Assembly (NCBI GenBank): GCA_003645085.1 | Contig: QNEE01000003.1 | Location: 1 to 35,685 of the forward strand | Source: a bacterium | GTDB lineage: Bacteria; UBP14; UBA6098 | Length of the DNA stretch: 35,685 nucleotides | Reading direction: 5' to 3' | Part shown: positions 10,935-16,259 of the stretch, in pieces | Layout: every line of letters starts with the position of its first letter | How positions within the stretch are numbered: the stretch's first letter is position 1 | The notes under the pieces: model-generated | The model's database searches: none | Seen by the model: the letters and a program-made list of their open reading frames with translations, nothing else | Told to the model about the DNA's origin: nothing | Translations under genes and position numbers: made by a program

Positions 10935-11396
10935 CTATTCTACCTCCTTTTCTGGGTTTTCTTCGGGAATAAATTCCTGAATCAATATTGCGAGAATAAC
11001 GGCGTGCCGTGTCGCTCGTGTAGCTGCAGCCTCGAGAGTAGCGGCGAATTCCTTTTCATCTCCTCCTTCTATAGATTTCGCCCAGGCGAGTTTCGCCTCG
11101 CTGTATTCTTTGAGTTGATTTAACGCAAAAGTCGCCATATATGCATCCTCGATGATTGCGGTCTTAATCGGCTCGAGGTCTATCTCCTCTTCTTCGGCAA
11201 CACCCTCGATACTCTCGAATGTGAATTCAACATCGATGCTGTCAAATAATCCATCACAGGCTTCCAGCAGCGGCAAAGCGACTTCGTATATCTCGATTGC
11301 GACGGCTTCCCCCGCCGTGAAAGGTTCTACTTCGATTTCGGCGGCGGGAATTATTGCTGCCAACATTAACGAACATACTACGAATATCTTTATCAT
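10935..11396 (-). CDS. Unrecognised small exported acidic protein
   Basis: 153 residues. MIKIFVVCSLMLAAIIPAAE is a signal peptide with a likely cleavage after PAA, so the protein is periplasmic. The mature part is strongly acidic, predicted helical, and rich in Ala and Glu (EAVAIEIYEVALPLLEACDG; EEEEIDLEPIKTAIIEDAY). The start overlaps the stop of the GlmU-like gene (ATGA) and has AGGAGG just upstream, so translation is coupled. It does not match any family I recognise. Confidence 0.6.
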   Translation of the reverse strand: MIKIFVVCSLMLAAIIPAAEIEVEPFTAGEAVAIEIYEVALPLLEACDGLFDSIDVEFTFESIEGVAEEEEIDLEPIKTAIIEDAYMATFALNQLKEYSEAKLAWAKSIEGGDEKEFAATLEAAATRATRHAVILAILIQEFIPEENPEKEVE

Positions 11397-12172
11397 CGGC
11401 CCTCCTGTAGTTGATATTCCAAAAGTGGTTTTAGATTTTTGGCAACCCTCGCTGCCAGCGCTTTTTCGGCCTGTTTAAGTTGTTCGACCGAATTAATGCC
11501 GAGTATTTCTGCGTTGTCTTCTGCCGCCATTGCAGCTACAATCTTGTTCTCTTTTTTAAGAACTTCTATAACATCGGTCAGGTAGAATTCGCCCTGCATA
11601 TTATCCATATCGACCTTTTCCAGTGCAGGCCACAAATCGTTCGCTTCGAAAATATATGTTCCGCTATTGACCTCGGCGATTGCACGAATTTCCTCGTCTG
11701 CGTCGGCGAACTCGACTATTCGTTCCAGATTTCCCGAGGTGTCTCGGATTATCCGGCCATACTGCGCGGGGTCGTCGAGAACCGCTGTCAGCACTGTAGC
11801 CGATGCAGTTTTATCGATGTGGTGCTTTAACAAAGCTTCGATAGTCTCTGTTCTAAGAAGCGGAGTATCACCACATATTACGATTATCTGACCGCCGAAT
11901 CCCATAAATGGGCCGTGCGCCGAGAGAACGGCGTCCGCGGTCCCGCGCTGCCTTTCCTGAACACAGAATATGACGCGTTCGCCTTTAAGATGAGATATAA
12001 CCTGCTCCATTCTATTGCCGACGACAACGGCTATTTTCGCCGGCTGGAGCTTGCGGACAGTCTCGATAACGTAATCGACCATAGGTCTTCCGGCCAACCT
12101 ATGAAGGACTTTCGCTTTATCGCTCTTCATCCGCTTCCCGGCCCCTGCGGCGAGTATTATTACTCCGAGCAA
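11393..12172 (-). CDS. GlmU-like N-acetylglucosamine-1-phosphate uridylyltransferase domain protein
   Basis: 259 residues. The nucleotidyltransferase signature LAAGAGKRMKSDKAKVLH at the N-terminus, VICGDTPLLR, RGTADAVLSA, GRIIRD and QGEFYLTDVIEVL all follow the pyrophosphorylase domain of GlmU. The protein stops where the left-handed beta-helix acetyltransferase domain of full-length GlmU (~450 aa) would begin; only a short helical tail remains. It would make UDP-GlcNAc from GlcNAc-1-P and UTP, in the cytosol, but not GlcNAc-1-P from GlcN-1-P. The start is TTG preceded by GAGAGGGGAT. It follows panD by 4 nt. A related sugar-1-phosphate substrate is possible. Confidence 0.82.
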   Translation of the reverse strand: MLGVIILAAGAGKRMKSDKAKVLHRLAGRPMVDYVIETVRKLQPAKIAVVVGNRMEQVISHLKGERVIFCVQERQRGTADAVLSAHGPFMGFGGQIIVICGDTPLLRTETIEALLKHHIDKTASATVLTAVLDDPAQYGRIIRDTSGNLERIVEFADADEEIRAIAEVNSGTYIFEANDLWPALEKVDMDNMQGEFYLTDVIEVLKKENKIVAAMAAEDNAEILGINSVEQLKQAEKALAARVAKNLKPLLEYQLQEGR

Positions 12173-12176
12173 AAGG

Positions 12177-12527
12177 TTATCCCCTCTCTACCAGTCGGTT
12201 GTTATCATCGACAAAAACGACCTTCGGCGGGCCGACCTCAGACGTTTCACCGATAGCGTATGATAAAACCATTATTTTGTCTCCGGGCATCCCTTTGCGA
12301 GCGGCAGGGCCGTTAAGCAGTATTTCGCCAGTTTCGGGTGCGCCTTCTATCACGTATGTTTCGAGCCTCTCGCCGTTATTCAAGTTAACTACCTGAACCT
12401 TCTCCCCGGCCTTGATATCTGCGGCTTCCATTAATTCCGGGGGCAAAGTTATACTGCCCTCGTAATCGAGTTCCAACCCTGTTATCGTAGCATTCGATAT
12501 CTTTGTTCTACACCATATTCTAAACAT
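12177..12527 (-). CDS. panD: Aspartate 1-decarboxylase
   Basis: 116 residues, slightly shorter than the ~126 of E. coli. The self-cleavage site is visible as YEGSITL near residues 23-29, in which Gly-Ser is cleaved to make the pyruvoyl group. NGPAARKGMPGDKIMVLSY is another family hallmark, with the Gly/Ala-rich turn and GD. The enzyme makes beta-alanine from aspartate for pantothenate and coenzyme A, which connects it to the coaBC gene about 4 kb away. ACGGAGGTG ahead of the ATG is a strong ribosome binding site located at the end of the mcsB-like gene. Confidence 0.93.
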   Translation of the reverse strand: MFRIWCRTKISNATITGLELDYEGSITLPPELMEAADIKAGEKVQVVNLNNGERLETYVIEGAPETGEILLNGPAARKGMPGDKIMVLSYAIGETSEVGPPKVVFVDDNNRLVERG

Positions 12528-12528
12528 T

Positions 12529-13578
12529 CTACACCTCCGTATTCAAATATTCTCTGAAAAGGTCAGCCCTATGAGTATCCATAATAACCCGGTTACCTTC
12601 TCCTGTAATCACCTTCAGATGTGCCGGTTGTCCCACTACAAAAAGCTCCGTAGCGGACATAACATCTATAGTGTCGTTCAGGATGCCTTCGGCGGCACCC
12701 AATCTAAGGGCGTTGGCAAGCGCATAGCCCTCCTGGCAGGCTATCATCCGGGCGTGAGTAAGAACCCCTATTCCTCTTAATATCCTATCCTCTATCTGAT
12801 AACGAGCCTGCGTCATAAGTGAATCCCGTGCTTCGTATTCTTTCTCTATCAGTCCTTCTATCATATTTTGCGCCGATGTAAGTATCTCTTCCTCGTCGAT
12901 TCCAAGGGTATGCGCGGTCTGTATCACAAAGAGATGCCCATCGGAACTCATTGCTTCGTCGGCAACAGACCTTAAAACGGACCCGGTTTTTAATAGGCTC
13001 TCCCTCAGATTTCTAAAGCCGTTAGAGAAAATCACTCCCGGTATATGCACCAGGAACCTGAGCATCAAGCCGGTTCCGCATTCTGCGGGTTTCGCCGTAA
13101 GGAAACCGTAACGGTCGGAATAGGCGAAAGGTAAACATTGCTGGAGTTCCTCCTCGATATTTCGGGCATTGCGATACGCTGTTTCTATGTTACTACCGGC
13201 AATTGCGAAACGGAAACGGAGGTAATCGGTGGTATTCAGACAAAGCCAGCTTGCCTCGTTTTCGGTTAAAAACAACCCGGTTCCGCGAGAGCGTTTCAAT
13301 AACTCCGACGGTGCGCTCATCCGCTCCGTCAAGTATTTACGTTCAGCGCCGTCTAAAGCGTCGGTTTCCCAGAAACGGTAGTCGGAAAAAAGCTCTCCGG
13401 TTGCATCGACAAACTGGCGGCGTGTTTTCTTAAGGTCGTCGACCTTGAGTCTGTCTGGAAACGGACTCCCGACCAGATTGCGGATATACAAGGCCTCGGA
13501 GGCAATAACGACCTCGAAATTATCTCCGCCCGTTGAAATCCAGTCGGGCAATCTCGGTGGATAGTTTTTTTCTATCAA
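12529..13578 (-). CDS. McsB-like protein-arginine kinase homologue, probably catalytically inactive
   Basis: 349 residues, the length of McsB, aligned end to end with the phosphagen-kinase fold. It keeps structural landmarks such as FLTAKPAECGTGL, PFAYSDRYGFLT, IEDRILRGIGVLTHARMI and VHIPGV. Key catalytic positions differ from B. subtilis McsB. SSRIRLARN reads ASEALYIRN, losing ATP-binding arginines. NEEDHIR reads NTTDYLR, losing the catalytic Glu. SCPTN reads AKPAE, losing the Cys. GTGLR reads GTGLM. The C-terminal phosphoarginine-sensing RDxxRA-like segment is also degenerate. It follows the McsA gene with a TTGA overlap (TTG start, GAAGGA upstream). In Firmicutes McsA/McsB tag proteins for ClpCP. 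Here a regulatory or scaffold role is inferred. Residue matching was done by eye from memory of McsB. Confidence 0.85.
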   Translation of the reverse strand: MIEKNYPPRLPDWISTGGDNFEVVIASEALYIRNLVGSPFPDRLKVDDLKKTRRQFVDATGELFSDYRFWETDALDGAERKYLTERMSAPSELLKRSRGTGLFLTENEASWLCLNTTDYLRFRFAIAGSNIETAYRNARNIEEELQQCLPFAYSDRYGFLTAKPAECGTGLMLRFLVHIPGVIFSNGFRNLRESLLKTGSVLRSVADEAMSSDGHLFVIQTAHTLGIDEEEILTSAQNMIEGLIEKEYEARDSLMTQARYQIEDRILRGIGVLTHARMIACQEGYALANALRLGAAEGILNDTIDVMSATELFVVGQPAHLKVITGEGNRVIMDTHRADLFREYLNTEV

Positions 13579-14042
13579 TTATTATCCTTCTCGATTCGCC
13601 TAATCTCGTCGCGCAGCTCGGCCGCTTTCTCGAAATCCTCCGCTTCGACCGCTCCGAACAATTTCCACTTAAGTTGCGCTATATCGAACTCGCGCTCCTT
13701 ACCGGGGCCTCTTCCGCGATGAAAACTGGTTGAATGAAGCCCTTTGAGTATGTCGGCTAGTTGCTTATCGAACGCCGAATAACACACCGGGCAACCAAGA
13801 AGTCCCGTTTTAAGAAACTGCGAGAAGCCGAGTCTACATTCCGGACAAACCGGGTTAGCCTTTTCGAACCCCAATTCCAGAAGTTTACGTGTCTTTTTTC
13901 GGCTCATCCGGGATTGTTCTTTGAAACCAGCTGTCCGTGCGCATTCCACACAAAGATATCTGACCACTCTTTCTCCGTCGACCATAATAACGCAGCGCAC
14001 TTCTGCAGGGTTTTTCTTACATGCCTGACACTTCTTTTCCAT
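13575..14042 (-). CDS. mcsA: McsA-like zinc-binding, UVR-motif protein
   Basis: 155 residues from the ATG at 14042, chosen over the listed TTG at 14063 because AGGGAGA lies six bases upstream and the family begins MxKxCxxC. Four CxxC pairs are visible: CQAC, CVEC, CPEC and CPVC, likely binding two zinc ions. The C-terminal ~40 residues (KWKLFGAVEAEDFEKAAELR) form a UvrB/UvrC-type UVR motif. In Bacillus McsA activates the arginine kinase McsB and modulates CtsR and ClpC. Its partner gene is adjacent here, but ctsR and clpC are not in the window. All cysteine pairs look intact, in contrast with the altered McsB. Confidence 0.9.
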   Translation of the reverse strand: MEKKCQACKKNPAEVRCVIMVDGERVVRYLCVECARTAGFKEQSRMSRKKTRKLLELGFEKANPVCPECRLGFSQFLKTGLLGCPVCYSAFDKQLADILKGLHSTSFHRGRGPGKEREFDIAQLKWKLFGAVEAEDFEKAAELRDEIRRIEKDNN

Positions 14043-14069
14043 AGTTCTCCCTAATATCTGCAAATCGAG

Positions 14070-14753
14070 TTAACCGCCGGTGATATCCTTTATCCCGCCG
14101 CTTTCGAGTAGGAAAACCCTATCCGCTTTCGATGCGAGTTTTCGATTGTGCGTCGCGAGAACGACCGCCAGCCCGTTTTCTTTCGCGAGAGAAAACAGAA
14201 GTTCCGTAAGGTGTTCCGCGCTTTTCATATCCAGATTGCCTGTCGGTTCGTCGGCGAGCAGAACCGACGGGTTACATATTAGCGCACGAGCGAGAGCCAC
14301 TCTTTGTTGCTCCCCTCCGGACAGGGTATTCGGTAAATGGTCCGAACGGTCGATAAGATTCACTTTCGAAAGAAGTTCCTCAGCCTGAACCAAAGCCTTA
14401 CTTTCCGGTATTCCCGCAAGTCTGGCCGGAATAGCGACATTCTCGAGCGCGCTGAATTCGGGGAGCAAATGATGAAATTGAAAAACAAAACCAATCTCGC
14501 TACCACGCAATTTTGCACGCTGCGATTCAGTAAGCATCGACGTCTCCCTGCCGTCGAATAACACATTTCCTTTGTTTGGTGTATCCAGAAGGCCCAGAAG
14601 GTGAAGCAATGTCGATTTCCCGACCCCCGATTCTCCTGTAACAGCTACAATTTGGCCTCGCCCAACAGATATCGAAACACCATCCAGAACCGAAAGCCAG
14701 CGGCTTTCTCCTTCAGGATACCCCTTTTTGATATTTACAGCTTCCAGTATCAA
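14070..14753 (-). CDS. lolD: LolD-type ABC transporter ATP-binding protein
   Basis: 227 residues. Walker A is GESGVGKST, the Q-loop segment is FQFHHLLPEFSALENV (a hallmark of LolD), the signature is LSGGEQQRVALARAL, Walker B is LLADEPTGNLD, and the H-loop is ATHNRKLA. The protein powers release of lipoproteins from the inner membrane for delivery to the outer membrane. Its LolC/LolE partners are not adjacent. The start is TTG without a Shine-Dalgarno, 8 nt downstream of a TATAAT box, implying a leaderless message. The family alignment (MILEAVNIKKGY) supports this start. A MacB-type role is possible but the FQFHHLLPEF motif favours Lol. Confidence 0.88.
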   Translation of the reverse strand: MILEAVNIKKGYPEGESRWLSVLDGVSISVGRGQIVAVTGESGVGKSTLLHLLGLLDTPNKGNVLFDGRETSMLTESQRAKLRGSEIGFVFQFHHLLPEFSALENVAIPARLAGIPESKALVQAEELLSKVNLIDRSDHLPNTLSGGEQQRVALARALICNPSVLLADEPTGNLDMKSAEHLTELLFSLAKENGLAVVLATHNRKLASKADRVFLLESGGIKDITGG

Positions 14754-15152: not shown

Positions 15153-16259
15153 CTATTCGACTAATAATAACCGTCTTGTCGAACGCCGACCGTCAGCAAA
15201 GAGCGTGAAAAGATACATCCCTGTCGGGAGTTTCCGGGCAAAATCGTCTCTGCCGTCCCATATTATATTATAATCACCACAGACTAACCGCTCGGGTTCG
15301 GCGTGCTTTACAACACGACCGCTCAGATTATAAATATTCCAGCTAACATACCGCTCGCGGCCCATAATTTCGAAAGGAACGGTAACGCGTGAATTAAACG
15401 GATTCGGTCTCGGCAGTCCTATCGAGAAAAATTCCGGATTAAAATCCCGCTTTTCTTCTATCCCGAAACCCGGATAACCACCCCCATAATATGTTTGCAC
15501 GATATACCAGTCATAACCGGAGAGGTTTATTGAATTCCATCGTATAGCTATCGCCAAATCGCTTAGAGGGAATCCGGGCAATATATTTAGCGGCCATTCA
15601 TCGGTTTCTAACAAAGAAGCGTCGGCAAAAGCCACAATATCAGGGTAAAGCATCGAACTTCCGAACGGAACGCCCTGAGCCAGCGCGAATGTCGTATCTT
15701 GATGGATAGAGTTCTCGTATAATGTCCAATAAGCCGGTATATCCGCGTCTGTAAACCTTTGTGAAGTCGTCTCGACACCGGTTGCAAATTCCAATACCGG
15801 GTTATCGTTTACCCCCACCCGGGGGTCTATATAGAGTAAAAAACCGACAGAATGCGAATCCGGGGAATCGTTATAAGCCAAAAACTCTATATCACAAAAG
15901 GCATCTAGAGACTCCTCGGGCATTAAATAGAATTTCTCCCAGATTCGAATCGGGTCGCGAATCCACTGGATTGACATAAAAAAATCCTCGACAACGCGCC
16001 CGGTATCCAGAAGAGTGAAGGAGGTGCCCAGACCGGGACGGTTAGAAAGGGTAACACCGTCTATATGCGCGATAAAATGTGCGCCGGTTACCTCTGTCGG
16101 GAATCCATCGATATAGGGAGTTCCGTCCGGTTTCCCGATACCAAAACGTCCTTCTACATCGTCCATAACTACTTTAACCCATCCGTTATCGATTTCGATA
16201 AGTTCGGCGGGAACAGTCAGCACAAGGAAAATCAATGTGATTATAACAATTCTAAACAC
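15153..16259 (-). CDS. Exported protein with FlgD-like/type IX C-terminal sorting domain
   Basis: 368 residues. MFRIVIITLIFLVLTVPAELIE is a signal peptide. The central ~250 residues are beta-rich, with a run such as YIDGFPTEVTGAHFIAHIDG, and match nothing I recognise; the Trp-rich WIRDPIRIWEKFYLMPEES suggests a carbohydrate-like or propeller fold. The last ~85 residues start GLPRPNPFNSRVTVPFEI and continue through WDGRDDFARKLPTGMYLF to RRLLLVE, the FlgD Ig-like sorting module used for secretion or surface attachment. The start is GTG with AAAGGA five bases upstream. It has its own promoter in the 64-nt gap after coaBC. Confidence 0.8.
   Translation of the reverse strand: MFRIVIITLIFLVLTVPAELIEIDNGWVKVVMDDVEGRFGIGKPDGTPYIDGFPTEVTGAHFIAHIDGVTLSNRPGLGTSFTLLDTGRVVEDFFMSIQWIRDPIRIWEKFYLMPEESLDAFCDIEFLAYNDSPDSHSVGFLLYIDPRVGVNDNPVLEFATGVETTSQRFTDADIPAYWTLYENSIHQDTTFALAQGVPFGSSMLYPDIVAFADASLLETDEWPLNILPGFPLSDLAIAIRWNSINLSGYDWYIVQTYYGGGYPGFGIEEKRDFNPEFFSIGLPRPNPFNSRVTVPFEIMGRERYVSWNIYNLSGRVVKHAEPERLVCGDYNIIWDGRDDFARKLPTGMYLFTLFADGRRSTRRLLLVE

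Follow-up and report, generated by a model that had tools for sequence, protein, structure and literature searches.

McsB is a bacterial enzyme that phosphorylates arginine residues of damaged proteins and so labels them. The McsB proteins of B. subtilis, G. stearothermophilus, and S. aureus (6tv6, 6fh1, and 8gqd) are the closest described counterparts of the protein analyzed here, and the presence of an mcsB gene is usually taken as evidence of phosphoarginine tagging. In B. subtilis McsB, whose numbering we use throughout, an R-to-K change at position 29, 31, 34, 125, 176, 207, or 337 abolishes activity, and stimulation of McsB requires residue R96 of McsA (PMC7235348). The kinase-dead C167S variant of this protein nevertheless retained part of its adaptor function for MgsR, as judged from in vivo half-lives for this one regulator, for which kinase activity mattered too (PMC7235348). 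Roles of the phosphoarginine receptor residues have been described as well (PMC8370763). The idea of a dead kinase serving as a scaffold is also found for bacterial Ser/Thr pseudokinases, which have a different kinase fold, in a review that names McsB in its reference list only (PMC12599244). Our search of the open-licence literature, with most subscription papers outside its scope, returned nothing on point regarding an McsB pseudokinase or pseudoenzyme.

The window, i.e., the whole stretch of DNA analyzed (35,685 nt; contig QNEE01000003.1 of assembly GCA_003645085.1, from a bacterium of candidate phylum UBP14), encodes an McsB homolog that resembles the McsBs named above in length, domain order, predicted fold, and McsA operon partner. 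In contrast to them, it has replacements at active-site residues R29, E121, C167, and R176 and at R31, and it scores below the equivalog cutoffs.

The mcsAB locus and the McsB active site

The genes at this locus are ordered LolD-type ATPase, mcsA, mcsB, panD, and GlmU-like nucleotidyltransferase on the minus strand, a strand that the initial annotation had not given, although its coordinates for mcsB were correct.

14070..14753, minus strand: LolD-type ABC ATPase; class-wide conserved upstream neighbor of mcsAB and synteny anchor for orthology
13575..14063, minus strand: mcsA, activator/partner, with four CxxC zinc motifs retained (NF053706 McsA, E = 4e-27; UVR motif; PDB McsA 8wtb_B)
12529..13578, minus strand: pseudo-mcsB (degenerate McsB), 349 aa (PF00217, E = 1.4e-28; PDB McsB matches in sequence and fold)
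12177..12527, minus strand: panD, downstream neighbor in family f1

The degenerate gene starts with TTG and overlaps the mcsA stop codon by 4 nt. Its product is homologous to McsB over its full length in both sequence and fold. In full-length phmmer comparisons, it matched solved McsBs with E values of 8e-37 (8wtb), 9e-37 (6tv6), and 7e-36 (6fh1), and NCBIfam McsB models matched it at E values of 1e-57 and 2e-51, far under their equivalog cutoffs. The best PDB fold matches of its AlphaFold model (pLDDT 87.7, pTM 0.87) are McsB structures 6tv6 and 6fh1, with a TM score of about 0.9 and an rmsd of about 2. The frame is open and full length, and McsB is the top predicted fold, in line with the earlier view that reading frame, length, and fold have been kept.

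Two other genes in the vicinity were characterized briefly. The 259-aa GlmU-like protein (11393-12172) has nucleotidyltransferase-type matches in a Pfam scan, with the acyltransferase domain absent, and an apparently secreted protein (15153-16259) has weak, below-cutoff matches to a C-terminal FlgD-Ig/Por-type sorting domain.

We defined seven core residues that act in catalysis or contact ATP phosphates (R29, R34, E121, R125, R176, R207, and E212) and located them, together with the receptor site, in the following motifs.

13477..13503, minus strand: ASEALYIRN for SSRIRLARN; R29 to E, R31 to L, R34 retained
13216..13236, minus strand: NTTDYLR for NEEDHIR; catalytic E121 to T, R125 retained
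13063..13095, minus strand: AKPAECGTGLM for SCPTNxGTGLR; C167 to K, R176 to M
12955..12972, minus strand: RSVADE; R207 and E212 equivalents retained
12565..12582, minus strand: MDTHRA for RDxxRA (phosphoarginine receptor site); R337 to M, D338 and R341 retained

All four replacements quoted in the initial annotation (ASEALYIRN, NTTDYLR, AKPAE, and GTGLM) were found, and they are not alignment slips, because they lie in gap-free stretches of a full-length alignment to solved McsB. The accompanying claim that catalytic residues were lost holds for R29, R31, E121, C167, and R176 but not for R34, R125, R207, and E212, so that four of the seven core residues are still present. Because three positions that are each singly essential (R29, R31, and R176) are gone together with the catalytic Glu and the active-site Cys, which is Lys here, the window McsB has very probably lost catalysis, as far as its sequence can tell.

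The retained R34, R125, R207, and E212 may possibly support weak nucleotide binding or residual activity, and D338 and R341 are present as well. Slight activity can survive in phosphagen kinases after a change of one catalytic Glu, and it is conceivable that a rebuilt site still lets the protein work as an arginine kinase, perhaps a weak one. We consider this improbable because active-site residues R29 and R176 were lost together with E121 and C167 and because sister copies lose the remaining residues too.

Loss and conservation within UBP14

McsB was found in 15 of the 17 genomes that make up our sample of the class. In family f2 (G005 and G008), all of the McsB residues are intact. McsBs of families f1, f3, and f4 are degenerate, and what is left of the site varies among them, from 0 to 4 of the seven core residues (0/7 in G007 and G013). 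Because family members differ in the residues left, down to none, the remnant site cannot be the basis of a function common to them.

The receptor site is retained more widely, and it raises the possibility of a noncatalytic sensor that binds phosphoarginine or nucleotide. D338 and R341 are kept in most f1 copies and in f3, R341 is present in all 11 full-length degenerate copies of the class, and the change of R337 to Met is uninformative because the intact McsB of G005 has Met there too. Nevertheless, a sensor role is very unlikely, given that the R337 and S285 equivalents are both changed in the window protein, that D338 is lost in f4, and that a source of phosphoarginine is not known in genomes of the class.

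Among contigs that extend far enough, most show the order LolD-mcsA-mcsB, in degenerate and intact families alike; the exceptions are G012, with a seemingly different ABC ATPase upstream, and G011, which lacks one. The window locus is orthologous to the intact McsB locus of sister family f2 in the same class. In a 36-row tree, from which other degenerate sequences and the active-site columns were left out, McsBs of the class form one clade (support, 96/91), with the degenerate copies on one side of a branch (93/92) and the f2 pair on the other. The simplest reading is a single loss inside the class, followed by purifying selection. Estimates of dN/dS were restricted to four pairs, the remaining pairs being saturated in dS, and were 0.09 (G007/G013) and 0.14 (G006/G009), along with 0.14 (G012/G015) and 0.10 (G000/G002) for two pairs near saturation.

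At reference positions whose conservation among 97 intact McsBs is 90% or higher, degenerate copies from UBP14 retain 20% of catalytic residues versus 58% of other conserved residues (one-sided P = 0.006), a comparison that is partly circular, as copies were classed as degenerate by the same residues, and for which P values are rough, as the rows are related. Conserved positions of the C-terminal domain are 83% retained. The fast divergence of the active site might be taken as a sign of a decaying, functionless gene. This reading is barely credible for a gene that is open and full length at an unchanged locus across three families and diverse lineages, with dN/dS ratios of 0.09 to 0.14 and its structural positions retained. 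For the pairs with measurable dS, the low ratios bear out the earlier proposal that the protein is under selection.

The description of McsA as intact stands in part. The window McsA has all eight zinc-ligand cysteines (four CxxC motifs) and the UVR motif, but it has Leu at the position that corresponds to B. subtilis R96. A basic residue occupies this position in 17 of 20 McsAs that adjoin intact McsBs, among them those of G005 and G008 in f2 (both Lys), and in 0 of 12 that adjoin degenerate UBP14 McsBs, a pattern that, with the caveat of phylogenetic nonindependence, fits a loss of the activator role of McsA. The R169 position is variable in both groups and uninformative.

The genome searches proposed in the initial annotation gave a consistent picture. 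A PF00217 search of the window genome (assembly about 90% complete) found one gene and no second copy, and the lack of a second mcsB copy recurs across relatives. CtsR was found in none of the 17 genomes of the class, in contrast to the CtsR/McsA/McsB/ClpC heat-shock system. The window genome does encode ClpP and a ClpC that carries a UVR M-domain and two GTEH motifs, and Clp_N proteins occur in nearly all genomes of the class, although clpC is not adjacent to mcsB in UBP14. The single copy, the lack of CtsR, the degeneration shared by three families, and the low dN/dS together support the proposed pseudokinase with a retained McsA. With no other PF00217 proteins found, it is reasonable to ask, as the initial annotation did, whether proteins receive any phosphoarginine in this lineage.

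Two minor observations concern other genes in these genomes. In family f4, pseudo-mcsB is followed by a DivIVA-like gene, judged by N-terminal sequence only (L032:9664-10251, L035:1386-1973, L036:4045-4641, L038:2223-2810, and L039:1572-2207). At the position of the YwlE T11 gate, the best low-molecular-weight (LMW) phosphatase has Thr in both genomes with intact McsB, and the degenerate-McsB genomes (L077 and other LMW phosphatase loci) have T, S, I, or A; this pattern is suggestive only, as the proteins may be other phosphatases.

Distribution outside UBP14 and the likely role of the protein

The degenerate state extends far beyond the genome of the window, which could not have been seen from one window. 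In a survey of 386 genomes, McsB was found in 149, and its residues were read in 141, of which 97 have the complete set of seven core residues. A further 23 genomes, all from outside UBP14, have McsBs with at most four of the seven, some of them aligned over part of their length and with entries that need checking. All 10 degenerate copies checked, weak ones included, passed the Pfam cutoff. The single-contig genomes G157, G179, and G318 each have one McsB, which is degenerate. An AU test did not reject a single origin for the degenerate McsBs as a whole (p-AU = 0.22), so the state may have arisen through one loss or several.

Most of the degenerate copies outside UBP14 are adjoined by mcsA and several by clpC, with a clpC-type gene following pseudo-mcsB in G235, G364, G094, G155, G286, G157, G318, G136, and G032. 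In two genomes from different families, McsA and a degenerate McsB are naturally fused into a single chain (558 aa in G135 and 541 aa in G272).

L237:2268-3944 and L238:2346-3971: McsA-McsB fusions

Because of this linkage to mcsA and clpC and these fusions, the kept fold, and the adaptor activity of C167S, a role as a ClpC adaptor or regulator is the most likely one. The McsA and pseudo-McsB proteins would form a complex, which, by analogy, may bind clients or control ClpC or ClpCP without labeling the clients. Taken as a whole, the statement that a catalytically dead McsB and McsA jointly serve ClpC(P) as an adaptor or regulator that does not depend on phosphoarginine is probably correct. 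The C167S mutant of B. subtilis is similar in being an inactive kinase with partial adaptor function in MgsR turnover; it differs in carrying a single laboratory substitution, whereas the window McsB has a natural, inherited loss of multiple residues. If this reading is true, such proteins would be natural tools to separate the adaptor role of McsB from its kinase role.

Alternatively, the pseudokinase may have a role unrelated to ClpC, for example, in metal or thiol stress sensing or with another target. The unlinked clpC in UBP14, the LolD-type ATPase as the constant neighbor, the zinc-protein nature of McsA, and the degenerate copies of G211, G342, and G237, which have no adjoining mcsA, all point in this direction. 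Since pseudo-mcsB adjoins clpC in many other lineages and Clp_N proteins are so widespread in the class, we regard such a role as rather unlikely and favor the ClpC adaptor or regulator.

McsB in an order that probably includes Chlamydia

Among the genomes surveyed outside UBP14, G269 belongs to an order in which PF00217 matches occur in 56 of 68 genomes and in which all 36 members read keep at most three of the seven core residues. In G269, mcsAB sits between frr and a secretin gene, with tRNA genes flanking, and the same surroundings have been reported for C. trachomatis (PMC10128030). In four further members of the genus, mcsAB is likewise bordered by tRNA genes at either end, and genomes of this genus are 1.0 to 1.2 Mb in size and mostly in two contigs. 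The synteny and genome size strongly suggest that this order includes Chlamydia.

L233:2814-3884: Chlamydia-type McsB, with most catalytic residues replaced

Chlamydia McsB (CT675) has been treated in publications as an arginine kinase, with its activity untested, and phosphoarginine made by McsB was proposed as a possible trigger of differentiation (PMC11708050, PMC10128030). CT675, as represented in the genomes that we read, resembles the window McsB in being single copy, mcsA linked, and replaced at active-site residues, and it differs in its residue pattern, possibly through a separate loss (p-AU as above). The differentiation proposal is therefore doubtful on the basis of these residues, and it is directly testable. 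On the other hand, C. trachomatis ClpCP degraded phosphoarginine-casein made with the B. subtilis or Geobacillus kinase, so this ClpC can read phosphoarginine even if McsB cannot write it, a point against phosphoarginine playing no part in Chlamydia.

We incline cautiously to the view that dead-kinase McsA-McsB systems without phosphoarginine are widespread and possibly recurrent, the order of Chlamydia included, and that the "protein-arginine kinase" annotations there are wrong on the product. Many lineages would then have the gene but not the chemistry, which puts routine annotations of this kind in doubt; one Chlamydia-type McsB scores 548 bits, above the 381-bit cutoff that NCBIfam sets for "protein arginine kinase."
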